NCBI GenBank assembly: GCA_013076295.1
Contig: RQOL01000466.1
Location: 1,550,001 to 1,614,000, forward strand
Reading direction: 5' to 3'
DNA length: 64,000 nt
Origin: Sanderia malayensis
Lineage: Eukaryota > Cnidaria > Scyphozoa > Semaeostomeae > Pelagiidae
Part shown: positions 5,841 to 63,713 of the stretch, one piece after another
Layout of the letters: the number at the start of each line of letters is the position of its first letter
Position numbering within the stretch: the first letter of the stretch is position 1
The notes under the pieces: generated by a model
Database searches by the model: none
What the model saw: only the letters and a program-made list of their open reading frames with translations
Told to the model about the DNA's origin: nothing
Translations under genes and position numbers: made by a program

Positions 5841-6137
5841 ATTGAAACCATATTCATTCCATATCTATGTTAACTATCAAAACGAATCAATGTGTGCCTT
5901 TGAGATGGATGATCACTTCTCAAGCTGCTATATAACTACATAATTACATACCATAAATTTGCAAAATGATATCTCGGATCGGACCTCGGTGGTGGCTGCC
6001 GCAGATGTGTTTGTTGGATCAAAACATCATATGTGCTCCTGCGCAGTAGACTATATGTAGTACTGCGCAGTTACACCTACCTTTGTATACAATTTGGGCA
6101 CTAGTATCTTTTGCCGGCTGACCATCATTGCTACATC
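5841..6137. promoter_or_regulatory. Divergent promoter region between sirtuin and EXOC3
   Basis: The two start codons face away from each other across roughly 300-470 bp, depending on the sirtuin start used. The tract has a short GC-richer stretch near 5975-6060 (ggaccTCGGTGG, TGCGCAG repeated). This suggests a shared bidirectional promoter of the kind common for housekeeping genes. This is inference from layout; no TATA box or specific factor site is claimed. Confidence 0.4.
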
Positions 6138-17822: not shown

Positions 17823-18441
17823 TTAAATTGCAAAGAATTGAATAGTTGTATGTTGAATATTTTGCAAAAGGACTTTAATATAATTATATTGTGCCTATTT
17901 CTTATTTTCAATCACACACAATTGGTCTCTGAATTCGATTATAAACAAATAGTTTCCTTTCCTTTGAGTCTCTTGAGAACTAGTATTCAGTTCCCGTTCA
18001 ATTTCAAGCCAGGTCATGTTTTCATTAAAAGAGTTTTCTTTTCTTATTTGTTAGAAAGTTGTTACTTTTCATATATATTGTAGAGTATATTATTTTTCTG
18101 AGTAAAAATGAATTTTATAACAGTAGATGTATTAAACTGATGAACATGTTTCGTATTTGTTGGAGACCATTCTTCCGTCTTGCGATGAGACTCAAGTAAC
18201 TTGAATTGAATGACTCAAGCTTTTTGTTCAACAAGGCGAAATTGCGCGAAATGGGCATGGGGACAATGGAAAAGCTTCGCCAATGCACTCTGGGTAATTC
18301 ATTACATATGTTTGAGCAAACGCCAATTAATTTTCCTTTACAAACAAGGCCGGTAAAATTGAAGAGGCTTGTCGAACTTGTGAAATAATTTCCTTGTTTT
18401 TTGCTGCTGGAAAGGCCTGCTTGCAGCCCTAGACGGCCGAA
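17823..18441. promoter_or_regulatory. Intergenic region: EXOC3 3' UTR and SR-factor promoter/5' UTR
   Basis: About 620 bp separate the EXOC3 stop from the SR-factor ATG. The first half is A+T-rich and without a convincing exon; the second half must contain the SR-factor promoter and leader. No specific element is claimed. Confidence 0.4.
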
Positions 18442-37025: not shown

Positions 37026-40000
37026 ATGCACATGGCTAAGAAGACAATGCCGGGTTCGAGTACAATTCAGATTGGCATTCTTTTATTTATGTTTATTTTC
37101 AAAGAAATTAAAGGTGAGTTGACGTTGCATTTTGGATATGGCAAACAGTGCTTCATGTCTTATGACATCTGGTACAGATTTATCTGTGTTCGCATCTAGC
37201 ATTAGATACCCAATCCGTATTTCGTGCCAAACGCAGGTGCATTGCATTCTATCATCAACAATTGATATGAAGTTCGAGTGTTCGAAATTTCAAACAAGGT
37301 TTATTAGAAAGTATACATCTTTTTGCAGAAATAGGCAGTGTTGATAGAGCCTGTTTATAAAACATATCAGACTAGGTGTTTATATTAAGCAATAGTCTGA
37401 TGTAGTATGCACTAAAGTTAGTTTGAATTCACAAAATATCTTCATTATGCTGCTGTATTTGTGTTTCTTATCGTCACAGTTTATCAGTATTCTCGGGGGA
37501 GGGGACTCTTTACTAATGGATGAGCTCAGCATTTGCCTCGCACGCGATTAGTTCGAGAAAAAATCTAAATATTCTACTTGCTCCGAACGAAAGGGAATTA
37601 TTAAGCTTAGATTTCTTTGCATGTTTTCTGACATCTGTGATAGATGTCATTCATTTTATTTTCAATGATATAACTTTGTTTTGCGTCATGCATTAACTGA
37701 TAAGAGTCCATAAGATTTTGGCAATGGTTTACTGTACGATAATGTTTGATTCCATTAATTAACTTTGCTTTACTATACCTCGCAAGCCTTTGTCACTGCA
37801 AGAGTATTTCAATTAAATGAGTCATGCGCATATGCGCAGAATGCGAGATGCGGAATATGACAGGAGTAGATTTAATAAAGATATATGATGAATTTTGTTC
37901 GTGTTCACAATGAACAACTACAGCCATACATGACACAACGCAAGCTATCTTTTACAGATTTTTAGCCTCTTCCACCCCTTGCTATTTATGATATATTATT
38001 GCATTGTTATTATCATTAATATAATAGTTTTCTTAGTTCCTCGATGTTTAATATTTGTTGTTACTCTCTGGCCCCATTTGGTTTTGTAGCCCGATGTAGC
38101 ATGAATATTTGCCTTGCACATATTGCTGGACTTGTTGTCTTTCCATATTGTTCAATTCAAAGATCATAAATCAACTATTGTAGGCGGAGCGTTGGCTCGA
38201 ATTGATCTTGAAAACAAGAGAAAAAATATTGAATTTATTCTTTTTGAAAACAAGCCGGCAGGTAATTGGATTCACACAATTGAGACCGTGAGCCAACTTT
38301 TGAGGTTAACCTTCAGTAGCTTTGGATTCAAACAGAGAAGCGGAGAAGTGGCATTAACGAGGCTGGAGTTTCAAAATCGAGGCTAAAATTTTAAGCATCA
38401 AAGCCAGAGTTGATTCAGCTCACTGTCACGAAAAATTATTTTAAGATTCCTAATTAAGATGAATTATGTTTGATAAGAGAACATGTTTGATACAGAAGTA
38501 CATATTGTGTATAAAAGGGCTGAGTTAACCAATCAATTGATATTACTGAACGGTGTCTGTGCAGGAGATTAAATTTTTAAGTAATAACGTGGAGTTTTGG
38601 CATGAAAGAGCGTCTTCATTGGGTCGCTGTGAAATATTTTAGGTCGTAAAACGTTGATTTTAAGATTCATGTCATGTAACTACGAATGCTTGTTTTATTT
38701 CAGGTCAAACAGCATTTCACATCGGATTCAGTTTGCACCTGCGCACTGCACAGGATGTCGGCCAGTCGAAAATCACATTGGTTGGACCATGGGAAACACA
38801 ACCGAAATCAGATTCAAGCTTATTCTTATCCGGTTTGAATGTGGATGGCGTGCACTCCAATCTTATCGTGCCCAGGTCAGGGATTTACTTCGCCACACTG
38901 AAGCTTCAAGTTTCTTCGTCGTCGAGTGACCACCACAAGACCACGTGTACCCTACGATCCTCGTTATCAAATCGAGTCTTGCGTGCCGTGTCTAACGGCG
39001 ATGAAGATGGCGACAGTTTGGAAAGGAAAAATAAGGAAATATTTCTGTCTGCAAGTCTCAGGCTAAGCATCGGGGAAAAGCTGCAAGTCTGGATAAAGTC
39101 AAGTGAACGTGGATTGAAACTCGAAACGGGATCGTTGTTTTCCTTGCTGTTTCAAGGAGACTATGGTTTGTTGCCAAGCTTTTTGGCAAGCCCTGTAAAG
39201 TCGCAGACTTTTACTCACAAGGAGATGTCGAGGATTCCGTCATGGAAGACGCATCATAAAAGCAGCACGGGCTTCTCCGTCGCAGCGGGAATATTCGTCT
39301 CAGCGAATACAGGCAATTACCTGTGCAGTTTGAATCTGATTCTGGAAAGAGCTGTCGGCGTTGTTGTCGTCGAGTTTCGGACAGGAAAAGACGTTCGACT
39401 CTCGTTGAGAAAGACTTATGATAAATTGACGTCAACAACTTTATCCGTTAGTCAGATGTTCAGATTGAACGAGAACGAGGCTATTGCACTGTGGCTGCAG
39501 CCTCTTACCGGTAGCTTTACGGTTTCTGACAGTTCGACGTTCTCTTGCTTTCTGGTTGGCAAAGAACAACGGTCAGTAAGGCTTGTTGAACCAAACATCA
39601 CAACTATGAGCGATGCACTCGGTTGGAATGAAATATCTTTCTGGAAAGTCAAGCAAAAGTCGACGGATTTCAGAATGTGGCCAGGTGAAGGAAAGATATT
39701 TTTTCCTTCGCCAAGCATTGCTCCGACAAGCATTGCAGTGGCCAGTTTGTCGTTGACTGTGGAATCAAGCGAAAATTGCCAAGTATCGATTGCACTGCTT
39801 AGTGGAGGAGTGGCCGATAGGATATTGACAAACACGGGGAGGTCTTTGGTGCTGAAGAACGGCACCCAAGGGACGCTGACATTAGTTGCTGTTCTGAAAG
39901 TAGCTACGGGTAGTTACATTTCGGCTTTTGTCAAGTCTTCTAAACAGATCCAAATCGTCAAAGCAGAAGCAAACATTGTCCGGAAAATACCAATAGTGCC

Positions 40001-43000
40001 TTCCATAATGACCTCATGTAAAAGTGGTCAGAATTTGGACAATCGAACAAAATGCAATGGAGATTGTTGGTCGACAGTTGCCCTTGTCCACGAGATGACT
40101 CAACAGTCGACCACGCGACACTGGTATATCGCACGGGATTACTTTTCACCAGAAGAAGACGGTATTTATTACGTGTCGATCAATTTAATTATCGATGTTG
40201 TGATGACGAATACATCCGAAAATAGCCTGATCGAGGCTGAGCTCGTTTCGAAGTCGAAAGAAGGCGCGCAAGAACTGCAACGAGTTTTTCGAGGGGTGGG
40301 AGGCTCTGCGAACAGTGTTCACTTGATGTCGACCCATTTTTTGCAAGCTCACGAGCGACTGTCTATCGCATACAGGTGTGATGCTAAAATTCAATGTCGT
40401 GTGTCTGTGACGTCGAGAATTTCAGCCGTCCTGATGGCTAGGACTTTTCTCGCCGAGGGCTTCTCGACAAAGCTGGACGAACACAGAAGCATCAATGTCC
40501 AAACGGGTCACGTGATACGCGGCTGGACGAAATCAAAAGCGAATTATATGATGACGAGTTCGTTCAACGCTGACGAAGGAGAGTATGCTGCAGCGTATAG
40601 TGGTATTTACATGGTCACGTGTAGTATACTGTTAAGGAATTTGTCGAGGAATATTGATGTGAGGATACAATTGAAAATCGGTGATGAATCAAAGTCGTTT
40701 GTCGAAGATATAAGCAGAGAGATGGCGGCTTTTGCCACGGATTACGGAACGACATTGTCTTTATCGTCGTCGATAAAGCTTGAAAAGGGACAGAAGGTCT
40801 CGATTCGATTGGTTACGAAAGAGAGGCAGACGAATTTACGTATTTTGGAGCATAGTACCTTGTCGATACTTGCCATCACGCAGCCGGGACTTCCTGCACG
40901 GTTTGGTTTCACAATGTCCATGCGAACGGCTGTCAAGGTTTACAGATCCATTCAGAGCAGTCAGAAGTTGCAGGGTTGGACCACATACAATCTTAATGGT
41001 GCTTTCAGTGCTGCTAACCGCGCGCAATTCCAATTCATAGATACACTTGGTCGGTTATCCGTGTCCAAAGCAGCCGTGCTGTTGCTATCGGTTACTGCGC
41101 ATCTTGCAACCAAGTCCGCGCAGCGCATGTCTTTGCGTGTAAATGTACACGATAACGAGATATTCGAGTCTGTTGACGCAGTCTCACCGCGTGGCACGCA
41201 GACCATGAAACTGTCCGTCGCGTTGTTCGTGCAGGCCGGCAGGTCGATATCCGTTGAAGTCAAGGCTGGGTCAAGATCACATGCATCACCGTATTATGTG
41301 TGGAAAGATTCCGTAATTTCTGCTGTGTTTCTCGACGATGTTCCACTCAAGCCTGGCTTAATGCTTGCTATAAATGGGCTCCGAACGAGCGGGAAAGATA
41401 ATGCCAAGATCAATCACTGTGAGTTTTGTAAATTTAACTTTTTTCTTGGATTACCTCCGAATTGGGGTTATTAAGCATGCGCACTTGAATTTTAGATTTG
41501 AAAATCGAAGTACGCATGTGCAATAACCCCAGCCTTGGGTAAAGGCGGGTTTACACGATCGTTTTTTGCCAACATTTTTTTTGATATTGGACTGCGAAGC
41601 TGAAGAAGGATCGTGCAAATGGCCAAAATTTTTGGCTGGGCATGCTGTTTTTAATCCGCTTATCTGTTGTTAATCACCCATCGTTGTAAATTTTATTTTG
41701 ATTCAAGGTCAAAATAAAATCGCTCCATCATTTTTTTTCAAAGACGCCGACAATGCCTGACATCATGTTTGACTCGGAGGGTTTCTAGAATTACAAAGTT
41801 GGGGTGAAATAAGAAACACTAGACCTTTAATTTGCTTTTTCATCAACAGAACAAACAGGAATACTATATTTTTAGGTAAAATATAACAGTTTATACGCAA
41901 AAGGTTTTTAAACGAAAAATTAACAAGTGAATATAGCAACACAAGAACAACAACTGAAGAACATATCTACGAGAAATTTATACTAAACACTTCCATTGCC
42001 ATGGAACCTGTCCAGGCCCAAAAAAAATGGTCTGCAAATGTCTGTCGAACACTTTCTGCAGAGGCCCTGCCCCTGGTATTGTTGCCTTTGGATCTGGGAG
42101 ATAAAGGCTGAAAGCATGTATTCGATTTCTCTTGTCTCCATCATCGTTCGATAACAACGTTGCAGACCATTTTTTATACCAAACACTTCCATTGCCATGG
42201 AACCTGTCCAGGCCCAAAAAAATGGTCTGCAAATGTCTGTCAAACACTTTCTGCAGAGGCCCTGCCCCTGGTATTGTTGCCTTTGGATCTGGGAGATAAA
42301 GGCTGAAGGCATGTATTCGATTTCTCTTGTCTCCATCATCGTTCGATAACAACGTTGCAGACCATTTTTTGGGCCTGGACAGGTTCCATGGCAATGGAAG
42401 TGTTTATAGTATAAATTTCTCATAGATATGTTCTTCAGTTTGAATTGTGTTGCTATATGTATATATTCACTTGTTACACTCTTTTCGTTTTATAAGAATG
42501 CTTAATTTTTTGCTGAGCCTCATTATTCTTAATTTTTTTTCTATTTTGAGCCCCGGAATATTCTTAAATTATTCTTAGCGCGGCAGACAATACGGATATG
42601 GCAATACACTGCTATTATTATCATCAATGCCAAAAACGCATAACTATTACAATGGCTGACAGAATAAGTCCTTAATTCCTGTAGGACAGATTTTATCAAC
42701 ACTTTCATCGAAATATGGAGGAAAAATCCTGCTAAAAATAATAGTTTCACAAGATCGTGAGCCTGCCAATATTCTTAAAATTTTCTTAAATTTCACGAAT
42801 TTTGAGCCTCATTATTCTTATAAAGTTTATTCTTATAAAAAGAAAAGAGTGTAATTTTTCGTTTAAAAACCTTTTGCATATAAACTGTTATATTTTACCT
42901 GAAAATATAGTATTCCTGTTTGTTCTGTTGATGAAAAAGCAAATTAAAGGTCTAGTGTTTCTTATTTCACCCCAACTTTGTGATTCTCAAAACCCTCCGA

Positions 43001-46000
43001 GTCAAACATGACGTAAGGCATTGTCGACGTCTTTGAAAAAAAATGATGGAGCGATTTTATTTTGACCTTGAATCAAAATAAAATTTACAACGATGGGTGA
43101 TTAACAACAGATAAGCGGATTAAAAACAGCATGCCCAGCCAACAATTTTGGCCATTTACACGATCCTTCTTCAGCTTCGCAGTCCAATATCAAAAAAAAT
43201 GTTGGCAAAAAACGATCGTGTAAACCCGCCTTAATGCGAGAGGCATCTCAATTCATCTCCTAATGAGTTTCGGGGAGCGTTTGTTGGCTCTTATCGTATC
43301 TATCTTTGTTTCAGTCAAATTTCAAAGCGATGTTCCCGGCAGCTACAAGCAAAACCTCGTTTACAAGGATGAAGGGTTTTTTGAAATTCCATTTTCAGGT
43401 ACACTATTTATGATTATGATTATGATATTTGAAATGAGCTCAAAATATCCTCTGTTTACTGCACAAGTTAAAATGATAAAAAATTGTCGTTTGAAAATTT
43501 TCTTTGTTTACATCCGTGAGGTCAGTTTTATCTCTATTTTTTAAAGCATTAGTTGAATCTCCATCAATAATTGATTTCATACCAACGAATTCTTTGCGCA
43601 TTTTTATTGAAGATTAAGTTTTTTGACTGATAGATGAAAAAAGTTATTAATTTATACTTTTGTAGATCAAATCAATCGGTTTGAAAAATTGAAGCATTTT
43701 GAATAAATAATTAAAATTGTTTACAACTCATCAAGCCTTATATAGTGACGGAAAGCCTTTTCAGATAATAACATATAAAAAAAATATAAATGGAGCTAAA
43801 TCGTCTATGACTGGGTCAAATAGCACCAAATCAAGTGATTATGAAATTTATTCCACGTTTGCCGCTACCCGTACCATCTCAATAATAAATAGCCATGTGA
43901 TGACCTGACTAGCGTGGGTGGAAAGCTCTATAAGTTTCTTATAAGAACCTACCTCAAGACTCTGACTGTTCATGAAGTTCATAAATTTCCTTATTTTAGG
44001 ACCCGTTTTAACTAAATGTTGGTACTAAAAGTTCTTTAATAGTTTCTTAGCTCCGCATTTAGTGATCAATTAGAGTATGGACCCAAAAAGGCATTCATTT
44101 CATTTCATTTTCATTTCATTTTATATTTTTTACCCACGGTAACCCCGTCAATCAAAATATAGACTGCTCAATCAAAATAGACTGCATTCAAGCTCTGACT
44201 TTGCTTAACATTCTGGCCAAAACAATGCCACAGTATTATAATGCATAGTATAGTATAGTATAGTATAGTATAGTATAGTATAGTATAGTATAGTATAGTA
44301 TAGTATGGTATAGTACAGCGTGATATAGTATAGTGCGGTATATTATAGCATTGTGTATAGTATGGAGCAGTAAAGTCGACTAAAATTTTTTGTTTTACTT
44401 TTTAGGAAACTACATTGTCTCGTTAACTCTGGAAGTGGGTAAATCACAGATGAACACTTCAGTCAACTGTGGCATGCTTCGATCGAGTAGTCGAAGTTCA
44501 TCAGAGCAATACCGTTTGACAAATCTTCACGGGCCTTTTCAGCTGACGAAGGTGTTGCAGTTTGACAGACCGGGTAAATTATCATTTGTTTGCCAGTCCA
44601 AAGGTGGGAGCGTGACGCTTAAGAAGACGAGCAATCTGATGATCAATTTCCTGGAATATTCCAGAGTTGGTGATGTCATTTTGAAGTTGAAGACCGAAAA
44701 AGAGTCCGATGGAAAGACCAGGTTGATTGGTATGCAATATGCATTTGTCTCATACTTTGTGCTCTTTCCCATGATCTAGCTAATTCACTTGTTGCAGCCA
44801 GTCCTCGAGGCCAACTTTTGAACCAATTGTCTTAGAGAGCTGAAAATTGTCTTAAAATGATTAGAATGTCCTAATTAGTAGGTTTTGATTATTTGCTGGC
44901 CAAATTTCGGTCTATTTTGGAATGCCGATATCCGAATTTGAACGTTCATGTACTATAGCTACTTTGCAGCTTTACGTGTGCTTAATCATGTATGCTTACA
45001 TACTATACATGCATACATATACATGCATACATACGAAATTCGTTGATTATGGAATTCACGTTAGTTGTGGCCCTTCGACTCGAGTTAAAGAAACAATTTC
45101 TTTAAAAATAATTGCAATCTGTGACAAAATTATGTTGCAACATAAATAAATGAAAAAAGACAACAAAAGAGAAATTAAACATCAAGCAACAACATTGTTA
45201 AAGCTGATTAAGGGCAAAGTCGATTTTTAGCACACTTTAATATACCTGCTCTCAGTTTTGTGCGGAATGAGCTCAAAGATTTCTGTTTTTATGTTTATTC
45301 TATATAAACACACAAAAGTTTTCTTAACACAAGCATTTACAAATATGTATGTATCTGTTTGTATCGAGGAACCACTAATTTTTTTCACTATAAATATTCT
45401 CTGTTTTTTCTTGCAGAGCTGCTTTAATTATTATCTTGAGCAAACGTTTCTTTACAGCTGCTTAAATGGAAATCAATGCAGTATTGATTGTTTTTAATTG
45501 TTTTCGTTTTCAACAGCAAAACACAGCATTAACGCCGAAGGCCCCTATTTACTGGCAATTAACACAAAGAGACACTTATCATCATTCAGCGTGAATCACG
45601 GTGACAAGACTATAATCCATGTGCAAAGAGCCCCTGATGACTCGAAGGACTCGGTTTTTTTCGCATTGAATTTGCAGCGAGGACGAAGCGTGGATTTGAG
45701 ATGGCTCGAAAATGACCAAGGATCCAATAACGAGGATATTACGTTCTACAAAGTGAACTATCGCTCTCTTGGTGGATTGGCTGCGTCTACCAGCAAAAAC
45801 GAAGCTGTGCTTGCAAGGAATCTATCATGGGCGCTGATAACAAGTTGGGACACATCGCTGCCAGTTAATTTCTTGTCCTTGAAGAATTCATATTTGTCGT
45901 CAACGGGATTGTTCATCTCCAAAGAAGATGCGACATATCTTGTCACCGTAGTTGTTAATTTTGTTGCCAAGACACAATCAATGAGGTTTGTTGTTGCTTT

Positions 46001-49000
46001 TCAATGAGGCTTGTTTCTTTTTTTATGCAACATGTAGATTTTATCAAATTTTCTTAATCAAATTATTATCGTGATGAGTTTTCTTCTATTGATGCCCTTG
46101 CTAAATTTGTTAAGAACGCATGTTTCACCCAACAATGCATTTCATTCATGCTTTTTGATTGCTCCGGTTTCTAATCTGATTTGACTATATTTCCAATGGA
46201 TCCTTGGTACTTTTTAAAATTTTCTTATGAAGCAGAAATCTCATGACTGCATATGTCGAGTTATTTTAGCTTAGTCACAACCTCTACTAATGCAACAGTG
46301 TTATAGTATTAACTAAACAGTAGTGTGGATTTTTTTGCAATCTAACAACCCTATTTCTTTTATAGGTATCTCTACCTTGTTATTGATGGTGTATTCTCGA
46401 AAACTGCTCAACGTGTTCCTGTATGCAATACAGCTGGCAATGCCATGTGCACTGTTACATTGACTACATCCCTGCATCTTCAGAAATGGCAATCCCTTGG
46501 TGTTTACATACATTTTGCAACATTTTACGATGAAGTGGTCGTCTTGAATGGAAGTCGACTCAGCATTCTGTTGCTTGGTGAGTTCAGATTTTTGTTTTTT
46601 TTCCAGGTATTTGTTGTAATTATACTTAAATACCGACAACTATCAGTGGCGTAGATACAGGGGGGGCATGGGGGGGCGACCGCCCCCCCACCAGAGCTTC
46701 CGAGCCATTTTGTCGGAAAATTTAAGATTTTGTCGGAAAGTCTTCGAAAATGATCTTAAAGGACATTTTGAAAACACTTTCAAATTGCTAGAAATAGCCT
46801 TGGCTCTTCCAGTATCGTCAGCTCATGACGAACGACTTTCAGCTGCTTAAAGAGAGTCACGACGTATCTCTGAAGTACCATGAATGAACAGGGTCTTGTC
46901 TTTCAAACATGGCGTGGATCTCCATCAATCGCGAAACAGTGGCAAACTTGCCATTAAGAAAGATGCAAGAACCCTTTCTTGAAGCAAAAACAAGAAAACT
47001 TGTCAATTAAACTATTCATCATTTGTTTCGATGTTTATATTTTGGTTTTTGTTCTGTTTTGGTTTTGACGTTTTGAAAATGATAATCACCAAAACATTTC
47101 ATTTCCCGATTCTTGTTTTTCTCAACTAACTGTCATCTTTCATGTTTAAACTCTGTGTATATTCAGAAACGTCTTATCGAACAATTTCCTAATTTTGGGC
47201 GTGCCCTTGTGGACACGCCCAAAAGACACACCTTTTTGTCGGAAAATTTTGGTCTAAAAATTTCTATCTACGCCACTGACAACTATGATAAGAATGGCGT
47301 AAGTCTGATGATCGCAATAGCGTGAAGCTCTGAGTTATAACAAATGTGATGTTCTTTATGCGTTATTCTTATCATAACAAACTTGCTTTGCCTAGGAGAA
47401 AGCTATGTATATATAGCTTTCTCCCAGGCAAGCTATATAAGTATATTTATTTACTTTGCCGATAAAGACACCTCGCTACATTTTTATACTTACATACTTA
47501 TATATTTTGCTTTTACATATTTCTGCTTATCTCTGATGAATGGTGGTAGATAATATCAACAAACAAATGTTAAGCTTCTGCTACATTTTTTACAAGATAT
47601 CTTTGAGAATTATGTTTGGTATAAGACTAATATTTTTTTCAGATATTAGTGTGGATTCCTATAAAGACAATGGCCCTAATGTAGTTGTGCAACCCTGGCC
47701 TAAGTTTGTCAATGAATCGAAAATATTCAACTGGAGCTGTGATGCTATTGGGTCACAAAATATGGAATACAGTTGGAGAAGAATAAACCTGGTAAATATT
47801 CAAAATAATCTCTTTCTATCCGCATTTTATACTGCCTCGCAGTGTTAGACTCACTACATTGCGTCCCTGTGCCTCACTCGTTTTGCTCGCTCGTCTGTGC
47901 TGTGCTGAGCAAGTTGCGAGCGAGGCACTGGGACGTAATGTAATGAGACTACCGCAGTGCTGCATTAAGCATTTTCTCATTGATTCTCGCTTTTTTATTG
48001 CAGGATACGAACAGAGAAAGCTTTATGACCAAAGGTAAAACCATCACTCTGTTTGGAAGACCAGAAGAGTCTGGGTACTATTACTGTTCTGTGGCAATGA
48101 ACGGGACTGTACACAGTTCTCAAGTCTCCACGTTTAGTGTATCGGGTAAGCATACTCCGTCACTCTAAAACTACAGTTATTTTGAGAACCATTTGTGAGG
48201 ATATTGAGGCGAAGCGTAAAGAAATTGACGTTGTGTCGTCAGTATATTACAAATTGCAGAAAGTTTAGATCAGGAATTTAATTAATTAGCCCGGTCTTAA
48301 ATGAAAATCCAGCTTTTAAATAAAATATATCATGTTTACATATACATCCGGGGGTGAGACATATTCGAAGATTTTTGGAAATTTTCTCTGATATAGAGTA
48401 CCTTCTGATTTGTATGCGAGTCGAATTTCTCATGCTAGATCGATAAGACATGGCTTAGCGATTGACTCTTTTCAGACATTTAATATCCGCAGTGATTAAG
48501 TTCTGGTGTATTTTGAGTCATGCTCATTAGCGTTTTTACAAATAATATTTTCCTGTGATAAATGATCTATTACTTGTGTTTGCTGATAAGACATAATCTT
48601 CGGCCAGTTATATTGATAAGAAAACCAGTTTTTTGGTGTGTGGATTGAATAATATAGCATTAAGATAACACAAAGGAAGAGAGGTTTTCTTGTTAGCACG
48701 GATTTTGAGGAGCAAGAATTCAACGTCGGTTTACATGAAGTTACGAAAGCAAAATGTAGTAAAACTAGAAGCTACGAAAATAATAAATATAACAAAAATC
48801 TTCGTCATAATTTGTTATAAAATTACTCTCGATACGGATCAACTGATTAATAGACTTTCTATGTAAGCACATTATCATTTAAGAGTAAAATGATGGTGCT
48901 AAAAGCAACATAAAAATATTAACATTAAGAGCTTGATCATGACGCTCCAACCGACTTTACCCCTTTTGAAAAATGTTTATTGTCTAGCAAACTAAATCGA

Positions 49001-52000
49001 CTTTTGCTTGTTTGAGGAGTTGATTTATATCATATGAGGTTTTTTAGTTTTGATTTTAATTTTGATTTTACTCTGATTTTTCTTAATTGTTCTATCTTTT
49101 AAATGTTAATTTCTGATTTATATAAATAGTCCTTGTTCCCTTCTAGACACTAACGAGTGTACATCAAATAAGACCGAACACCAGAACATTTGCCATAAGA
49201 ATGCCAACTGCATCAACACAATCGGATCGTATTATTGTGAATGCAAAGTTGGTTTCAATGGAGATGGACTCCGTGTTTGCTCTGGTAAGTAACGGAATAA
49301 TTTGGAATCTTCTTCAAATCTCGTGAAATTATGTTGCAGGTGCATTGGAATATTACAGCTTCTACTTTAACCTTTAGTTAGGCTCCTCACTAATTATCGA
49401 CTGATGATTATAGGTGTCTGTCTCGACAAATGTTTATAATTACTCCTTCAATCGTTTTGTAGATAATAATGAATGCTTGTTAAATACGACATGTCATGCA
49501 GATGCAAAATGTGAAAACACCCTGGGATCTTACAAATGCCAATGCAGAGATGGCTTTTCAGGCGATGGAAAAATATGCGATGGTATGATTGCTTTTATTT
49601 TACTTTTTATTCGAGCGTTTTTGTATATTTTTCACTGAAGAGTGAATGATAATTTTTATTTTTCACTAATTGTTACTGTACATCTTGTATCTTTACTGTT
49701 TATTTTCCAGATATAAATGAATGCCTTGGAAGTGGGACGCATTTGTGTGATTCAAATGCAAATTGCATCAACACAAAAGGCTCTTATGACTGCAAGTGCA
49801 AACCAGGTTATCAAGGAGATGGGTTTAGTTGCAATAGTAAGTTAATTCATGTTATTTGAGCCAAGCTTAGAGCTTGTAACTAATTACAGCTTAATCGTAA
49901 TCTAAGCTTATCTGAATCAATGCTAACTATATGCAAGCCTCGATGTGAATCCCTTATATTTTTCTTATTAAGATATAAACGAATGTAACCTTGATGACGA
50001 TGAATACCCTTGTGACGTCAATGCCGAATGCTCTGACACAACTGGATCATTCTACTGCACATGCAAAAGAGGCTGGACTGGCAATGGAACTATTTGTAAC
50101 GGTATTGTGACGTAATTTTTACATGTGATCATATTTACAAGCCTGTTATTTAAAGGAGAACTGTCACCAAAAATTATCTTTACTTATTTTGGTTCGTTTT
50201 ATTGCGTAGAATACGAATCCGAAATCCGTTTTTCGAAACAACGCCTTGTTTTCGAGTTATTATCAATTCTTTCTGAAAAAACGAGAATTTTCGGAAAATC
50301 TAACTTTACAGTGCTTCGGACACTGGTGACGCAAAATGTGATCATTGCAAAAACAGGAAGTGCACAGGCCCGCTTGGAATCTGTGTGATTGAAAAATGCT
50401 TGCCTGAGAATTTTCACGATTTATGTCAACTGTCTACCTGCAAAATGGCAAACAACTATGAAAATTATGAATTGGAAATTTCTGGTCATGATGAAGTACA
50501 TTTAGTGGCCATGGATATACCGCCTTTCATATATGAACCGAGGAGGAGACATGACCAACAACAGCCAGACACGTCGGGAGGATCATCAAGAAGTTCTGAC
50601 AAATCTCAAACTGAATAATGTTCAAAGGATTAGGATTGGAAACACTGAATGGTAATAATTGTGTTTGTATTTCTTCAAATTTATGTATCTAAGAATCCTG
50701 GTCATTATAGCCTAGACGAAGAGCACCTATTCATCGTTGTATACCAAGAGCGTTCATAAAATTTTGTAATGCGGTCATTGTTGTGAAATACCAACAGGCC
50801 GTGCAAGTCTGTGTTGCCACGAAAAGGACAGAGTTTTGATGAAAGCTGCGGAAAAGAATTTAAATTGTATTACTGAGGATGGTGATTTAAAAAGCGTTTG
50901 TCTGAATGCTGCTGTCATAGAAACTGCCATATACCAGTTTATTGAAGATGAAGAATATCTGGATGATGCACAATCATATAAGCTGTTCAGATAATCACAC
51001 TCTGAAGCGCTCTGAAGCTCATACAAACTCAAGAAAACAATTTTATGTTGAAATTTTTATGTACCTCCAGTCTTCGTCTCTTTTTGAATGTTCCATAAAT
51101 TTTCTTTGGACGCAGTTTAGAAGGGCTGCTACTGAATTTAGAAACTATAACGCTCCTCAATCTGGAATGTTGTTGCGGTACAAAGTTAACGAGACACACT
51201 CTCCTAACCCATTTTTTCCGTAGCTTTGGATCACTAGGAAACACGAAAAGTGTCTTTTTTCTTGGCGAACCTGGATTAACCTGCTTTCTACTATCTTCCA
51301 AACAGTTGTAAGCACCGCAGTTACCATTTTAATCACCAAAATAAGCATTTTCAAACCAGTCGTCTTGTGCCGAAATTGCTTGAATTACTACTGAAAACGA
51401 GTACGTGCCGAGAACCAATGATCACATATGACGTCAGAAGGAAGTGACAAATTCTCGGGAACGAGAAAACAACGAGAACTTGTCCGGCAGTACCGGACAC
51501 TTTAAATGCTTAATAACTCCAAAACAAGGCGTTGTTTCGAAAAACGGACTTCGGATTCGTATTCTACGCAATACAACGAACCAAAATAAGTAAAGATAAT
51601 TTTTGGTGACAGTTCTCCTTTAAAGCAACTGTTCTAGAAAACGAACTTATCAAGATTGGTTACAGTCTACAGTTGCATGTTCAGACCTATTACAGTTCAT
51701 GTAGCCCATTGTAATAAAGGCAAGTTGTCTTGCAGATATAAACGAGTGTGAGTTACTGAATTGCACTGGAAATGCGACATGTTTCAACTCACCAGGCTCT
51801 TACAGGTGCAAGTGTAATCGTGGGTTCAGAGAGGTCGGTGGACGCTGTGAATGTAAGCAAAACACTGCTCAATTCTGTTGTGCTCTTAATTGCTGGAGAC
51901 TATGGGCAATAATAACCAGTTTAAGCAACTATTTGAGCTTTTATAGCTCCGAAACGAGGCCAGAACATAAGGGTCAACATTAATTCAGATATTGTGTTGC

Positions 52001-55000
52001 TTTCAGCTCTTGGCTGCATTCCTCCTCCGTATTGTTCTGGCGAATTCAAGGCTGCGTGGTGGTCACGCCGCCCTTATCTTGCGAATTCTTCAAGCCAAGA
52101 GCCTGTTGGTTTGTTCAAGGATATACTGAGTGAAGTGGTTGTGTCTTGCTGTAACAACTGCTCTTTGCTGTCGTTTGTTGGCCCGTATAATGGCTCATTT
52201 CACGTCGAAGAAGCAATTGAAGGAAATACTACGGTGGACTTTGGCTGTCCCCTCTACGGCTCTCCAGACCAAACCTTATTCAGAGGCTATCCATTCATGT
52301 CAGTGGGTAAGAAACGGCATCTGTTATCAGACTCACTACATTGCCTCCCTGTGCCTTACTCGTTTTGCTCGCTCAGTTGAGGTGTTGAGCGATTTGTTTT
52401 AAGCGAGTTGCGAGCGAGGCATTGGGACGTTATGTAATGAGTCTAATCTGTTATGTTATTGAATCATTCTTGACCACCGCCCCAACTGAATGCGTTACCT
52501 CTTCCTTTTTTGTTTTATCACCAATCGTCATTTTCTAACGCTAATGCATTGAATTGCAAAAGGACACCCAATGGTCAAGTTGCGCGAATTTGATTAAAGG
52601 CAGTGGTAATGACTGATTAACTGAAGATAGGAGTAACTGATTAACTGGAGGTAGCAGTGACTGATTAACTGAGGCAGTTTGACTGTTCCACTGAATACAG
52701 GAGTGATTGAAGACATTAGTAACTGATCAATTGAAGGTAGTGGTATCTGAATATTTATCAAAACGAGCAACGTACAGAATTAAGAAATACTAGTTCTAGC
52801 TCGTCTATTTAGTTGTGTGTTGCTGTGCAGCATGTTAGTTTTACGCAGCCTGTCTATTTAACTTTGTAATGGTCACGTTATTTATTTATTTATTATTTAA
52901 TAATTACTTATTTATTTGTTTATTTATGTTTTTACAGTTGAAGCTCCTGGGATTGCCTTTTTTGTGAAGAATCGGCAAGAAAAAGAAAATGCTGTCCTTG
53001 GATCTTTGGGAAGTTCGTGGCCTATTCTCGCCATCACATTTCTTCTCGCCTGCTTATCTGGCATTATCATTTGGTTTTTGGTAAGTTCGATGGCCATCTA
53101 TCAGTACTCCGTCTATATTTTTGTCTGCTGCTGAAATATGCTCCATTGGGTTGTCAACTCATAGAAATTATTGGTTTCTTATCTTGTTCGTAGGACACAG
53201 TAAGAAACCCTAAAGAATTTCCCAACTCGTTCATTGGTGGAAGTTGGGAAGGATTTTGGTGGGCTTTCATTACCATGACAACAGTTGGGTGAGCATCCCT
53301 GATTCAATCGATAATTAAATCAATTATTATACGTTACTGTGTACCATATAGTCAGTCAATGATTATTGACACACACACCATATTGATGTTATTTCAGTTA
53401 TGGAGACAAGGCACCGAGATCATTTGGCGCAAGACTTTTCGGCATCATTTGGATTCTAATCGGTCTGGTAATCATTTCAACATTCACTGCGACCATCACC
53501 ACAATGCTTACTGCTAGTAGCCTTTCGAACGAGATCAAATTGTACGGCATGAAAGTTGGCGTGCTGCATAATAGCGAAGAATACCGCCTGGGTGTGAAGC
53601 GGAATGCCGAAACAAAATGTTAGTTGTATGGATTTCATTGGTCCTTCTAGCAGTACTAGCTACTATTTGTTTCGTCATTCATGTGTTTATTTAGTCTTTT
53701 CATCTTCGTGTATTCACACGCATTTCATTGCCACTTTTCGTATATTTATGTGCCACTTTAGTGTTTGTCTTTCCATGCATCTATGCATTGTTGCAACTCA
53801 CCCATCTCTCCATTCATTTATTTGTTCAACACAAGGCATGATTGTCTATCAAATTTTTGTATATATTTTTTTGTACTTCTTCTTTGCATCTTTTTATGCT
53901 CTTTTCCTTGTATCTTCTTCCTTGCATTCACTTCTCTGTGTATTATCCCTTGTATCTTTTCTTTGCATACGCTTATCTGTATGTTCTTTCTTGTACGTTT
54001 ATCTCTGTATCTTCTTCCTTGTACTTTTTCCTTGCATTCACTTCTCTGTGTATTATTCCTTGTATCTTTTCTTTGCATACTCTTCTCTGTATGTTCTTCC
54101 TTGTACGTTTATCTCTGCACCTTCTTTCTTGTATCTTTTCTTTGCATGCTCTTTTCTGTAATGTTCTTCCGTGTATGTTTATCTCTATATCTTCTTCCTT
54201 GTACTTCTTCCTCACATCTTCTTCTTAGCTCGACCATTAACGTGTATACATGATTCTTGTTTGTATCCACAGCTTTTGAATCAGTGAAAGATATTGTGAA
54301 GAATGTAAAAGACGACATGATCCAAGGAATACTCTTGGATGCGTACATTGCCGGTGAATTCCAAGACAAATTAGATGACTTAAGACTACACCAAGTCATT
54401 GATTACATATTCTCATACGGTGTTGTGCTATCAAGGGATGGGCTGGCAATGCGTCAATGTTTCAACCACTTCTTGGAGTCGAAGCAGAGCCGTATTTATT
54501 CCACTATTTCAAAGGTTATCAAGCCTTTAAAGGTAAGCAAGTAGAACCTTGAAAAATCGACTATTTTTAAGTTGGAATTCCCACTTGTCCACCATGCTTC
54601 TATTCTTTCTTGGTTGTAATTTTTTGACACCCGAAGCAAAGTTAACTTTAAAGGGATTTTCAAGAAATTCCATTATTAAAATTTCCTCTGCTGACCGCGC
54701 ATAAGAGTGAATTTATTCTGGAAGCAGACTCCCTATAGTTTGGTCCGGGGTTCAGTGCTAGGTAAACATTACTAACACGGGTATGTAGTACAATCCGTCT
54801 GTTTAAGAATGTTTTCCAGTTCTGCTCTAACAAATTATTGTGTGCCTGTCCATTTTTGGTTATGATACGTTGGCTTTCATTTGCAGCAAACGAAAAATGC
54901 AGCAAGTCTTGCTGCTCAAAAATCAGCCAGCATATTCGATTCAGAATCGCCCCAATTTAAGTACACAATATATGCTGGCCTTGGTGCCTTTGTCATCCTA

Positions 55001-55869
55001 TTCATCGTGGGTGTCATCTGGGAATACATTAATTCAAGGAGAAGGAAAAGAAGCTACTCGATAACAGAAACTGAAGAGCCTAAAGGTGTGTTATTATGTC
55101 TTATTATATTGCATTTTTCATTGCCACTATCATTACCTTACTGAATGCAACGTAAGCTCTGTTCAGTATTTAATAATGACGTAATGAACCTTGCTGGAAA
55201 CCAAAACAAATACTTCTTTATATCAGGATGTTCGGGGCTTGTAAAACCAAGAGTGAATTTTACTGTGAAGCAGTTCATGCATAGCTCGTTATGTAGGGAG
55301 GCTTGCTATATAAGGAGCTTACTGAAATATCTCTTTATCTATGCGCCTGTGCAGAGGCTAAATGTGCAGAGACTTTGTATGGCTGAGGGTTTTTTAATAA
55401 AAGTGTGTCGCTAAAAACTGTTACGATTTCGATTCACAGACGATAGTTTGACAGAATGGAAAGTGCAATGGGATTCAGGAAAGATTAGCCATTTCCATCA
55501 AAACATTTTCAAAAACGATATAACTGATTTAAAAAAGCATATCAAAGAATTTTCAGATAACTGGATCAATAAATTGGATGAGCTCGAGGCCAAACAAAAT
55601 AATGAGATTAAAATGGTCAAGAACGCCAATCCCAAGGTATTTATTTATTATTTATGCCATGTTGTTTGATTTCATAAATTGTGTTTGGTGAGTGTTTTAT
55701 AGTTTTTGTTTGATTTTTACCTGGTGCTTATTTGATATTTTGGATTTTCAAGGTATTTCAAGAGAAATCTCGAGGCTATAGAATTGGGAAAATGCCCTTT
55801 AAATTCCCCAAAGGCAGTTTTCACAACAGTAATGGCAACGAGAGCCACTTGGAAATGTTGCCAAAATGA
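37026..55869 (+). CDS. Gene C: jelly-roll/Ig/EGF ectodomain fused to a glutamate-receptor-type K+ channel
   Basis: Exons: 37026-37113 (signal peptide), 38704-41418, 43315-43398, 44406-44729, 45517-45985, 46366-46577, 47643-47791, 48004-48145, 49147-49284, 49463-49582, 49711-49836, 49973-50101, 51736-51852, 52007-52306, 52938-53080, 53194-53288, 53398-53618, 54273-54532, 54887-55085, 55440-55636, 55753-55869. Total 6345 nt, 2114 aa; all phases agree. Order: TNF/C1q-like modules (to about residue 1297), Ig (1298-1394; W.C, then SGYYYCSV), five EGF (1395-1604), then a GluR0-like core: S1, M1 (about 1730-1752), pore with TTVGYGD (about 1781-1787), M2 (1794-1820), S2, M3 (about 1970-1989), then a basic, Lys-rich cytoplasmic tail. 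The filter predicts K+ selectivity; the ligand is unknown. Intron 17 has donor gttagt, the least standard site, but both phases require it. Confidence 0.83.
41463..41533. repeat. Imperfect 71-nt hairpin just after the gene C exon 2 donor
   Basis: TGGGGTTATT...CATGCG.ACTT..ATTTT on the left pairs with its complement ending AATAACCCCA on the right, with scattered mismatches. It is either a tiny palindromic MITE or a stable RNA hairpin at the start of intron 2. Confidence 0.65.
41981..42372. repeat. Two tandem 196-bp units inside the Harbinger-like foldback
   Basis: The block starting AAACACTTCCATTGCCATGG at 41985 recurs at 42181 with a few substitutions, then turns back as an inverted copy near 42366-42400. 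The repeat creates long duplicated minus-strand open frames, which I judge not to be genes. Confidence 0.85.
42477..42851. mobile_element. TA-target MITE nested in the right arm of the Harbinger-like element
   Basis: The ends CACTCTTTTCGTTTTATAAG and the complement of CACTCTTTTCTTTTTATAAG are inverted and flanked by TA (42475-42476, 42852-42853). The opposite arm of the host palindrome shows the uninterrupted sequence (AAAAATTAACAAGTG near 41916-41930), which is an empty site that proves both the insertion and its 2-bp duplication. Confidence 0.88.
44245..44358. repeat. (TATAG)n microsatellite in gene C intron 3
   Basis: About 20 pentamer units of TATAG, degenerating at the 3' end, shortly before exon 4. 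Confidence 0.9.
46644..47278 (+). mobile_element. hAT transposon remnant with perfect 8-bp target duplication in gene C intron 6
   Basis: TIRs are CAGTGGCGTAGATA and its complement TATCTACGCCACTG. The flanking duplication ACAACTAT is exact (46636-46643, 47279-47286). A residual frame at 46668-46850 ends FKLLEIALALPVSSAHDERL, matching the hAT C-terminal dimerisation motif (LPVSSA..ER.fSA). At 635 bp it is an internally deleted copy, not an active element. Confidence 0.92.
47388..47438. repeat. Inverted repeat in gene C intron 6
   Basis: GAGAAAGCTATGT and ATATAGCTTTCTC form a hairpin, extended by CTTGCCT..AGGCAAG outside. Confidence 0.65.
47643..48145 (+). other. Ig-like domain of gene C (two exons)
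   Basis: Exons 47643-47791 and 48004-48145 are split at phase 0 in the middle of the domain, exactly as in gene B (25326-25166 and 25053-24930). The first exon has NWSCDAIGSQNMEYSWRR (B-strand Cys, C-strand Trp); the second has EESGYYYCSVAMNG (F-strand Cys). Confidence 0.82.
47847..47952. mobile_element. Palindromic MITE copy 1 (gene C intron 7)
   Basis: AGACTCACTACATTGCGTCC at the left matches the complement of GTAATGTAATGAGACT at the right, and most of the element folds on itself. Flanks CGCAGTGTT (47838-47846) and CGCAGTGCT (47953-47961) form a 9-bp target duplication with one mismatch. Copy 2 is at 52328-52445. Confidence 0.82.
50445..50994 (+). pseudogene. Broken gene for a P2X7-receptor-tail-like (zinc/Cys-His) domain inside the TTAA element
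   Basis: The ATG at 50445 opens a frame with DIPPFIYEPRRRHD. A frameshift near 50560 is then needed to reach EVLTNLKLNNVQRIRIGNTEW, which ends at a donor (gtaata). Acceptor ccaacag at 50797 leads to LCCHEKDRV, NCITEDGDLKSVCLN and a stop at 50992-50994. The order YEP, RIGNTEW, CC..E, CIT and CLN is that of the C-terminal cytoplasmic domain of P2X7 receptors, which is widely carried by invertebrate transposons and multigene families. Identification is from memory of the motif order; the frameshift suggests it is dead. Confidence 0.45.
51190..51325 (-). pseudogene. THAP-like zinc-finger fragment inside the TTAA element
   Basis: One minus-strand frame reads NCGAYNC, then LFVFPSDPKLRKKWVRRV. This fits the THAP pattern of a paired Cys, then F.FP.D..LR..W. 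No start or downstream transposase core is visible. THAP domains are the DNA-binding part of P-element- and Kolobok-type transposases. Confidence 0.5.
52328..52445. mobile_element. Palindromic MITE copy 2 (gene C intron 14)
   Basis: It begins CAGACTCACTACATTGCCTC and ends GTAATGAGTCTA, with the same inverted layout as the copy at 47847-47952. The flanks are an exact 9-bp duplication, ATCTGTTAT (52319-52327 and 52446-52454). It starts 21 bp after the S1 exon donor. Confidence 0.85.
52595..52752. repeat. Degenerate minisatellite in gene C intron 14
   Basis: Variants of GTAACTGATTAACTGAAGG recur four to five times at roughly 27-bp spacing. Confidence 0.7.
53860..54230. repeat. Pyrimidine-rich minisatellite in gene C intron 17
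   Basis: CTTCCTTG/TATCTTTTC units recur with a higher-order period of about 110 bp (for example TTGCATTCACTTCTCTGTG near 53922 and 54033). It is free of stops on one or more frames, giving long artefactual open frames on both strands. Confidence 0.8.
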
Positions 55870-61179: not shown

Positions 61180-63713
61180 ATGGTTGTTAAGAAGTTCATT
61201 GCAGCAAAATTCATAGCGATTGCTGTATTTCTTCTTGTAAATACCAGCTTTGGTAAGTGGAATTTGAGTTTCCTTTGTATAGTTAGCTTTTCTAGATAAT
61301 TAGACGTGCAATTAAGAATGTGTAATTTTCAGAAGTTTGTTTTACAAGGCTATAATTTATTAGAACTTTGAAGGGACAATGTGGGGGATAAATCGACAAA
61401 GAGTTTCGTTCGAAATAGTTAAATCTCGAATCACACGAATTTAAGTTAAACAAAGTTGACAATTTTGTTGTAAAAGTTGATAAAAAGGGGAATACACTGC
61501 CATGTTAAGTTATTGCCTTTTGAAATTTATCGACGTACTTTTTCTGGAAATAAGAAAAAACTCTGTTCTCTGTTCTAATGAAAAATGCGACTTTTCTATA
61601 AGAATTAACATTTGTTGCCAAGTAAGAGAATATCCCACTGAAATATTTTTGAGAGAGTGAACGGATTGTTTTGAGAGCATTTATCACGACAATACGGCGT
61701 TTTTTATTGAGCACTTATCGAAGACTATAGAAAACCTGGTTTGTATAGCAAGAGATTTGGCATAAGCAGTCTCAGCTTAAGGGATGTTTCATCAAGATTA
61801 AGCTTTTAAGAAGTTACTTGTGGTTGCTTTCTGAGTCTAATACTACCTGATGTATGTTTTGATACAGATTAATCTTCGAAGAAAAATAACAAGAAATAAC
61901 ATTCGTGCCTGACCTGCCCGCCTTTTTTTAGAAGAAATTTGTTTATAAGAACCTAGAACTGGGATTGCCAAAAATTCGAGAATTTATTATTATGCTTGGC
62001 TTAATCTGTCTTTTGTTTGGAATTAAGAAACTGAACAATTTCCATTCTTACAAAAAACTTATTGACTTAAGTTTGCGCACGGCATGGTCTCAGATAATTT
62101 TGTTAATTTTTCTTTGTACTTTGTAACTTTGATATGCATGGACTATTTTCGTGAATATTTGGGTTTATATCCATTCAATGCTGAGCTTTAAGACAAGAAA
62201 GTAATTTTGAATCTCGAGTATATAAGAAACCAATTAAGAAACTCTTAGCACTGGTCAAAGTTTATTTTGAAGGAAATGCCAAAGTTTTGAAATTAAGTGT
62301 TTTATTTTCATTGCATACATAACTGATTGCACAATTTTTGATAGGAATACTTCAACTCTTGTTGGACTTCGATATTTTCAATCCTAATTTATATGTTGAT
62401 TATTTTGCTTGGAATATTTAGTCCCGGTATTCTTGCAGACATTATAATGAAAAGTGTGTATTTTTGCCCTAAATAACTATAACGATTTTAAGGAAGTTTT
62501 CAGTTTATCTACAATATAACAGGTTAAGAAAGAAAAGGTTTTATTTTTAGCAAGCAACGTCACGATATAAAGTTTTAACACGATGTGTGCATCCATGGTT
62601 TGGGATTATCAGATTTGAGCATATGCCAATGGCATATGCTTGCTAGCGCCATGGTTTCGAGCCATAGAACCACATCTATGGAAGCCCAATGGAACCAGCT
62701 TGATAATGATAATCACATTCATGAAATTTAGCTATTATGTATTGAAATCGAACCTTCATTTACTCATCGAACATGTGCCTTATTTGTGTCGTGTTTCCTA
62801 TTTCATTTTCGTGTTATTTACAAACTATAACGTTCTTTAACAGATTTCCAAAATAAATGTTTTTTCAACTCTTTTCGCAGAAGATTTACCCAACAATATA
62901 AAATATGCAAATAATTATTCTTCAGAACCACGTCAAATCTTTTCACGAACTGAGCTACTTTCACTGAGGTTTTCATTAATATTATTGCTTTAATTGTAAA
63001 ACACCTGCATAATACAAAGTCATCTTAATTGTTATTGATATTGGAGAAATAGACATACAGAGGATTGATAGATAAGTTTATCTGTTTCTGCTGCTACCAC
63101 AGGTATAACTGTGTACAAAAAGATCGCTGCTCAGATAAACAAGCGTGTTACTTAAGATTTGTTTATTTTCTCTTTTCTTCAACCAGCTCTCTTGCCCTCC
63201 TTCACAGCAACTGCTGCTTTGTAGCAACCATCCTCATACCTCAACGCACGCATTCAACTTTAATTATTCTTTAGTTTGGGTTATTGATTATTGTTAAGGC
63301 GACTAGATGTTATGATTGTAGAATCACTAAGCCATAATGCAATAGTAAATAAGCGAAAAGCTGTTGTGTTTCTTTACCGTCGTGTTTGCATCAACAATTA
63401 ATAGTTGTTTGCTTTCTTGCAGTGGCAAGCAAGAAGCGAAAGTGCAAAGACGTTTACACAGCTGCATGGTGGGAATACCCTCCGTATGTTTACCAAACTG
63501 ACACCAACCAAGTCAGTGGGATATTCCCCAAGTTAATGAGGCTGATGGCACAGGGCTGCTGTCAGTCAAAAGTTAATGTCTCGTTTGCATACGTCTTGGC
63601 GACTCGAAACGAGGCAGTAGAGCAGGTGGTCAATGGGTCAGCGGACTTTGTTCTTCCACTCATTTTGAAGCCTGGAAAGACGAAGTTTTTGAGCTTTCCT
63701 TTTGTGCCATTCG
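61180..63713 (+). CDS. Gene D: glutamate-receptor-like channel paralogue, 5' part (continues past window)
   Basis: Exon 1 (61180-61252) encodes a signal peptide MVVKKFIAAKFIAIAVFLLV plus NTSFG and ends at phase 1. Exon 2 (63423-63713) encodes an S1 lobe: KDVYTAAWWEYPPYVYQT, then GIFPKLMRLMAQGCC, NEAVEQVVNGSADFVLPLIL and FLSFPFVPF, ending at a phase-1 donor gttagt. It aligns with gene C exon 14 at AAWW..(P/R)PY, V.G(I/L)F, CC, EA/V..G..DF..PL and the final PF, and both exons share the same phases. The transmembrane part should lie beyond 64000. It lacks jelly-roll, Ig and EGF exons, so it represents the unfused channel type. An in-frame upstream Met (61090) would bury the signal peptide, so 61180 is preferred. 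Confidence 0.75.
61360..61460. repeat. Degenerate TTCGAA-family MITE fragment in gene D intron 1
   Basis: ACTTTGAAGGGACAATG and GAGTTTCGTTCGAAATAGTT match the internal core of the copy at 22886-23070; the ends are lost. Confidence 0.5.
62618..62640. repeat. Short perfect palindrome in gene D intron 1
   Basis: AGCATATGCCA and TGGCATATGCT, 11-bp arms around a single A. Confidence 0.75.

Follow-up and report, generated by a model that had tools for sequence, protein, structure and literature searches.

A jellyfish gene predicted to join a C1q/TNF-Ig-EGF ectodomain to a GluR0-type channel core with a potassium filter signature

The stretch of DNA analysed here (the window) comprises 64,000 nucleotides (nt) of contig RQOL01000466.1 of the jellyfish Sanderia malayensis. 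On its forward strand we modelled a gene, hereafter the focal gene, that runs in 21 exons from an ATG at 37026 to a stop ending at 55869. All 20 introns are GT-AG, their phases agree, and the reading frame has no internal stop. The predicted product has 2114 amino acids (aa), and exon chaining thus upheld the proposal of an earlier note, made from the letters alone, of one continuous, phase-consistent gene of about 2100 aa. Its parts, together with an optional exon outside the present model, are as follows.

37026..37113, + strand: exon 1, signal peptide recognised by eye (exon chaining)
38184..38261, + strand: optional 26-codon exon, phase 1-1, with AG/GT flanks; present in the deposited prediction P0121, outside the present model
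38704..41418, + strand: exon 2, the first six jelly-roll (C1q/TNF-like) modules and the beginning of the seventh (Pfam, own profile, structure model)
43315..43398, + strand: exon 3, part of jelly-roll 7 (exon chaining, own profile)
44406..44729, + strand: exon 4, remainder of jelly-roll 7 and beginning of degenerate module 8
45517..45985, + strand: exon 5, degenerate jelly-roll 8 and first half of jelly-roll 9
46366..46577, + strand: exon 6, second half of jelly-roll 9; phase-2 intron within the jelly-roll as in the neighbour gene
47643..47791, + strand: exon 7, Ig-like domain, part 1 (chaining, Pfam)
48004..48145, + strand: exon 8, Ig-like domain, part 2; phase-0 intron within the Ig as in the neighbour gene
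49147..49284, + strand: EGF 1, phase 1-1 exon (chaining, Pfam)
49463..49582, + strand: EGF 2 (chaining, Pfam)
49711..49836, + strand: EGF 3 (chaining, Pfam)
49973..50101, + strand: EGF 4 (chaining, Pfam)
51736..51852, + strand: EGF 5, absent from the P0121 prediction (chaining, five EGFs of relatives)
52007..52306, + strand: S1 half of the ligand-binding domain (LBD); exon begins in phase 1 (fold in the relative P0001)
52938..53080, + strand: end of S1, and M1
53194..53288, + strand: pore helix and filter start (TTV and two bases of the Gly codon)
53398..53618, + strand: filter remainder (GYGD), M2 and start of S2
54273..54532, + strand: S2 half of the LBD, conserved Asp included
54887..55085, + strand: M3, last transmembrane helix
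55440..55636, + strand: cytoplasmic tail 1, a long helix in the model of a relative
55753..55869, + strand: cytoplasmic tail 2 and stop

P0121, 2105 aa long, was taken as a prediction of the same gene because its core is 100% identical to that of the focal protein. Its sole differences from our model are the skipping of EGF 5, the addition of the 26-codon exon and four extra N-terminal residues. The focal start codon is uncertain; P0121 opens with MSVIMHM, and an upstream coding exon is possible. Within the EGF4-EGF5 intron lie transposon-like inverted repeats of 114 nt, 97% complementary and 1.2 kb apart (50149-50262 / 51511-51624), which may be the cause of the EGF 5 skipping. The intron after exon 2 carries another pair, of 381 nt and 97% complementary (41542-41922 / 42852-43232), and further nested repeats.

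The composition of the amino-terminal arm was analysed with Pfam profiles. The EGF_CA profile matched five stretches (5.5e-36), in agreement with the five EGF domains first proposed, and C1q (5.4e-7 at residues 217-314) and TNF (6.1e-5) also scored above their curated cut-offs. Sequence and fold matches to the C1q/TNF jelly-roll superfamily were both obtained for the arm. The focal Ig domain was matched by Ig_3 at 3.8e-4, below the curated cut-off, while the homologous Ig of a neighbouring gene reached 29.6 bits with Ig_2, against a cut-off of 27. The count of 'about nine' TNF/C1q-like modules stood for eight, which were detected by a profile of our own; the ninth (~1055-1170) is degenerate and was recognised by eye only. 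This profile was trained on the focal gene and its kin, that is, on the sequences being counted, and gave one false match, on the Ig domain. The predicted structure of exon 2 resembles single-chain C1q/BAFF trimers, and its second fold match was the Cbln1-GluD2 entry 5kca.

The channel core carries the filter TTVGYGD, which agrees with the TxVGYGD of K+ channels and is the filter given in the earlier note; it is split between the two exons 53194-53288 and 53398-53618. Ion_trans_2 (6.4e-14 at 1749-1822) and Lig_chan (7.6e-11 at 1737-1831) both matched the focal protein above their curated cut-offs, so that the region 52007-55085 does resemble models of ionotropic glutamate receptors (iGluRs) and K+ channels. 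None of the 16 Pfam matches of the focal protein at E up to 1 was a LIVBP-type amino-terminal domain. Among 144 fetched proteins, 138 have TTVGYGD, including P0121 and the bacterial-type P0144, and this near-constancy suggests, from sequence, selection for conduction. The fold was tested on the relative P0001, which is 52% identical, the focal core itself being known here from sequence. In the predicted P0001 structure the LBD clamshell is kept, with S1 and S2 halves flanking the pore; the fold list of its core has the GluR0 LBD on top, tied with bacterial glutamine-binding proteins, and Foldseek placed AMPA receptors first. In a PDB sequence search with a core profile, the 60 best of 315 rows included K+ channels, and no LBD stretch was matched in those rows; the LBD assignment therefore rests on the fold and on P0144. 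The GluR0-type core of the initial reading is thus in line with the Pfam matches and with the clamshell predicted for P0001. Chance similarity of the core was rejected on the Pfam matches, the relatives and the P0001 fold. P0144 is probably bacterial and is a GluR0-like channel by its SBP_bac_3 and Lig_chan matches and its TTVGYGD filter. It is preceded by a domain (PF04069) that resembles glycine-betaine-binding proteins, a further sensor on the same kind of core.

In the LBDs of iGluRs an acid holds the amino group of the ligand and an Arg holds its carboxylate. We examined these positions in an alignment of 61 cores, hand-chosen from the 130 proteins fetched by then. The acid at the equivalent of GluA2 705 (position 476 of P0001) is kept in 61/61 cores (58 D, 3 E), members without listed adhesion modules included, and aligns with the Asp of Nostoc GluR0; S or T occupies P0001 position 439 in 60 of the 61. 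The glutamate-binding Arg (GluA2 R485) is not conserved, the commonest Arg column of the stretch holding it in 14/61 cores, and in 38 cores the final part of S1 lacks Arg altogether. The focal protein has a single Arg there, within LFRGY. The Arg position was set by hand, because Nostoc GluR0 aligned poorly there when S1 was aligned automatically.

Relatives show the same order in one chain. By BLASTP, residues 421-2083 of the focal protein align with 2-1656 of Rhopilema P0122 at 44% identity, and this collinearity, together with the Pfam matches, supports the module order given in the earlier note. Clytia P0124 aligns at 49% over 1309-1992 and 20% over 18-844, P0123 at 47% over 1259-2071 and 20% over 37-539, and P0125 at 39% over 1282-2045. 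P0131 and P0001 begin at the Ig end or within the EGFs and therefore show the EGF-to-core join only. Contigs that leave little or no space for introns encode P0123 (1922 aa, contig of 5929 nt), P0125 (1294 aa, 4115 nt), P0131 (731 aa, 3115 nt) and P0001 (713 aa, 2871 nt); to judge by length, they are probably spliced transcripts. EGF_CA, Ion_trans_2 and Lig_chan scored above cut-off in all five of P0122-P0125 and P0131, with five EGF_CA matches each in P0122, P0123 and P0124. EGFs and core share one chain in seven fetched proteins, P0121 included, as expected from a single gene. These comparisons indicate that the join of arm and core is neither chance nor an annotation chimera, and we regard the architecture, the K+-type filter and the GluR0-type fold as nearly certain.

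A scan of 184,004,477 bases (918 contigs) of the same genome gave ~30 candidate core loci after grouping by hand. Upstream open frames were taken at 18 core places, ten of which were displayed, and Pfam was run on chosen frames, those of the C829 array, L024, L025, L026 and L028 being excluded. By adjacency to the core, not by exon-by-exon chaining, CUB and Ig were found upstream of L023, TSP1 and FN3 upstream of L022 and of C777, and FN3 upstream of L027 and of C859. On C859 four similar-scoring core copies are evenly spaced at ~11.5 kb (755001-795000, L015-L018, and 795453); a PA14-like open frame, seen by eye upstream of one copy, had no Pfam match. In Anthozoa such combinations occur in one deposited chain: CUB-Ig and core in P0133, and FN3 with varying sets of TSP1, SEA, MAM, TLD or laminin-G and core in P0126, P0129, P0134 and P0142. 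Adhesion-type domains are present in 27/144 fetched proteins (EGF type 7, with P0121 counted; CUB-Ig 4; FN3 type 16), a count from precomputed Pfam labels that is biased by the length windows of the searches and by partial listing. The core relatives are the best 120 of 785 listed, and among the matches listed, kin without listed modules also occur in hemichordates and an annelid. Some deposited names are misleading ('Cubilin', 'contactin-3-like', 'Potassium voltage-gated channel subfamily F member 1').

A first, quick tree of 78 rows (77 of the 144 fetched proteins and the focal core) gave the FN3 group a support of only 49. After removal of 18 long-branched or redundant rows, a careful tree of 60 cores placed the EGF group (100/98), the CUB-Ig group (100/98) and the FN3 group (96/92) each on one side of a branch. 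The CUB-Ig and FN3 groups join (96/92), and a branch at 93/85, which was not starred, separates them and a module-less group from the EGF group. P0128, P0134 and P0137 (TTLGYGD) are in neither tree, being excluded by the filter pattern, and P0140 and others were also left out. Most simply, this tree suggests two arm gains, or one gain and one loss; the starred branches by themselves force one change only.

Two neighbours in the window show the parts of the focal gene separately.

30471 to 21735, - strand: head-to-head neighbour gene with nine jelly-rolls followed by an Ig domain and seven EGFs; a single transmembrane helix, recognised by eye, and a short tail come last
63423..63713, + strand: S1 exon of the next gene (L009), starting in phase 1, the gene running past the window end

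The inverted neighbour was read over 1788 aa, with an incomplete N-terminus and no stop. Its jelly-rolls, Ig and EGFs follow one another as in the focal gene; unlike the latter, it has seven EGFs, a single transmembrane helix and no match to a channel core. BLASTP gave 30.5% identity over 131 aa (E 5e-13) across jelly-roll 9 and Ig, and collinear jelly-rolls at 21% (E 5e-9). Matching introns lie in jelly-roll 9 (phase 2), before the Ig (phase 1) and in the Ig (phase 0), and those after the Ig and between EGF exons are in phase 1 in both genes; the last phase-1 junction leads to the transmembrane exon in the neighbour and to S1 in the focal gene. No adhesion module was found for the L009 core by the comparison used, the upstream exons lying outside that model. 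The acceptor phase at S1 was tried at nine further places in seven regions: it is phase 1 at the S1 start in L022 and L027, two C829 places have phase-1 acceptors further inside S1, and five were unreadable (two in C777, and L023, L024 and L026). Given such phase-1 acceptors, phase-1 EGF exons could insert before S1. Phase-1 exon shuffling may have supplied the arm from an adhesion-type gene resembling the inverted neighbour; in the opposite direction, an adhesion-type gene may have gained a channel. The locus, where an ectodomain-type gene and a second core flank the focal gene, would be a natural example of modular channel building.

We then compared the focal protein with known systems. In the accessible part of review PMC12332018, the iGluRs named as having a K+ signature are just GluR0 and AvGluR1. 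GluR0 is described there as an LBD interrupted by a K+-type pore with a TxVGYG signature and as having two transmembrane segments only. GluR0 of Synechocystis and Nostoc shares with the focal protein the split LBD, the K+-type pore and the S2 Asp, whereas the focal protein has a third transmembrane segment, a giant arm and a helix on the cytoplasmic side, and conservation of the glutamate-binding Arg has been lost. AvGluR1 of the rotifer Adineta vaga, compared by description only, likewise is an animal iGluR-like channel with a K+ filter signature; it has the architecture of eukaryotic iGluRs, and adhesion modules are unmentioned in the accessible description (PMC12332018). Metazoan iGluRs (AMPA, kainate, delta, NMDA, Epsilon and Lambda) share the Lig_chan match and the order S1, pore, S2, last helix, in contrast to the K+ filter and the lack of a Pfam-detected LIVBP-type domain in the focal protein. 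A term search of the accessible text of the iGluR survey PMC6307864 found no mention of potassium, GluR0, K+ channel or selectivity filter. The GluD-cerebellin system also places C1q-type modules amino-terminal of an iGluR-like channel, but cerebellin is described as a separate secreted molecule (PMC6926483, seen in part), whereas the focal jelly-rolls are covalent and in tandem. In the literature searched, mostly outside subscription journals, we found no description of adhesion modules on a K+-filter iGluR.

Taken together, these data favour, at about an even chance, a single cnidarian receptor-channel gene with a ligand-gated K+ pore whose arm places or tunes the conductance at contact. That S1 and S2 make up a clamshell of GluR0 type enclosing a K+-type pore is well supported by homology and by the fold of the relative, and a tetramer is therefore expected, as in iGluRs. 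The pore would pass K+, which for the focal channel is likely from its sequence, and thereby hyperpolarise the cell. A small ligand may close the clamshell and so open the pore; that the LBD has some ligand is somewhat probable, and it is perhaps an amine, because the acid that binds an amino group has been retained, unlike the Arg for the carboxylate. The C1q/TNF-Ig-EGF arm would occupy the place of the amino-terminal domain of other iGluRs and, given its domain types, may bind a partner on an adjacent cell or in the mesoglea; an inhibitory conductance would then be located at, and perhaps tuned by, cell contact, comparable to a GluD receptor with built-in cerebellin. For the placing or tuning role of the arm we see the chances as balanced, while direct gating by contact seems unlikely. 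The coupling of adhesion to conductance remains inference, as the earlier note had said.

Several observations weigh against this reading. To our knowledge, current, ligand and binding partner are known for no member, and an LBD that has lost the Arg might bind nothing at all. Many relatives have no visible adhesion module, which makes the arm dispensable for the core. The folded core is that of P0001 alone, a relative, and the Foldseek fit of the whole LBD and transmembrane domain is loose (TM-score 0.29-0.45, root-mean-square deviation 10). The exon-2 model has a low mean confidence (predicted local distance difference test, pLDDT, 58.8), with modules 1 and 3 lower than module 2, and how a trimer-type arm fits on a four-fold channel is unexplained. 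In the relatives, the C1q/TNF cut-off was passed only by P0123 among P0122-P0125; P0122 (22.9 vs 23.7 bits) and P0124 (20.3 vs 23) fell just below, and P0125 and the short P0131 gave no C1q/TNF match in Pfam. An Ig was matched in P0124 only of this set, below cut-off. The jelly-rolls and Ig of the relatives thus rest mainly on BLASTP and our own profile.

The same evidence bears on other explanations. Pull on, or clustering of, the C1q/TNF arm might itself open or shut the K+ pore, with the LBD a mere linker; the attachment of adhesion-type modules directly to S1 through an EGF stalk, the unconserved Arg and the occurrence of dissimilar adhesion ectodomains on the same core type, as if contact were the common factor, would fit, but the LBD fold of the relative and the S2 acid of all 61 cores, members without listed adhesion modules included, are kept, and we consider such a gate improbable. 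A K+ leak channel that is constitutive, or gated in some other way, and has a degenerate LBD and an arm only for positioning would agree with the 38 cores devoid of Arg in the last part of S1; the conserved residues at P0001 positions 439 and 476 would be needless in a dead cleft, which makes this possibility distinctly unlikely.

A silent pore in a GluD-like adhesion or signalling receptor has a precedent, since signalling that involves no ion flux has been reported for GluD1 bound to Cbln4 and to glycine or D-serine (PMC6926483, in the part accessible), and a helical cytoplasmic tail is predicted in the relative. The almost invariant K+ filter speaks against it, and we give it little probability. 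The transposon-like insert in the EGF4-EGF5 intron and the skipping of EGF 5 in the deposited model could point to two adjacent genes wrongly joined. This was rejected on the same order in the Rhopilema and Clytia predictions and on short contigs, and P0121 itself links EGF 4 to S1, so that the two-gene reading retains only the slightest probability.

Beyond the favoured receptor-channel reading, we tentatively, and with considerable doubt, propose a group of cnidarian 'adhesion potassium channels', in which K+-filter iGluR-type cores would have acquired C1q/TNF-Ig-EGF, CUB-Ig or FN3/TSP1/SEA/MAM ectodomains, apparently in at least two separate events, and contact with a neighbouring cell or the matrix would directly set a hyperpolarising conductance. 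As part of this proposal, the nine tandem focal jelly-rolls would fold as three pseudo-trimers within one chain, equivalent in covalent form to the bridge between cerebellin and GluD. The large cnidarian family, its several ectodomain types, the unconserved Arg and the separate parts in the neighbours were all invisible to the earlier note. Relatives in other cnidarians suggest an overlooked group, and a large animal family with the K+ signature stands against the two such iGluRs named in the accessible part of PMC12332018. If true, the proposal would define an inhibitory branch of the iGluR fold and would open the control of a conductance by contact to testing in animals whose nerve nets are simple.

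Elsewhere in the window, three open frames were assigned by eye: 5133-5864 (-) resembles the start of a sirtuin (SIR2), 16203-17258 (-) is possibly a MADF/Myb-type DNA-binding protein, and 18433-18984 (+) resembles an SR-type splicing factor with RRM and zinc knuckle.
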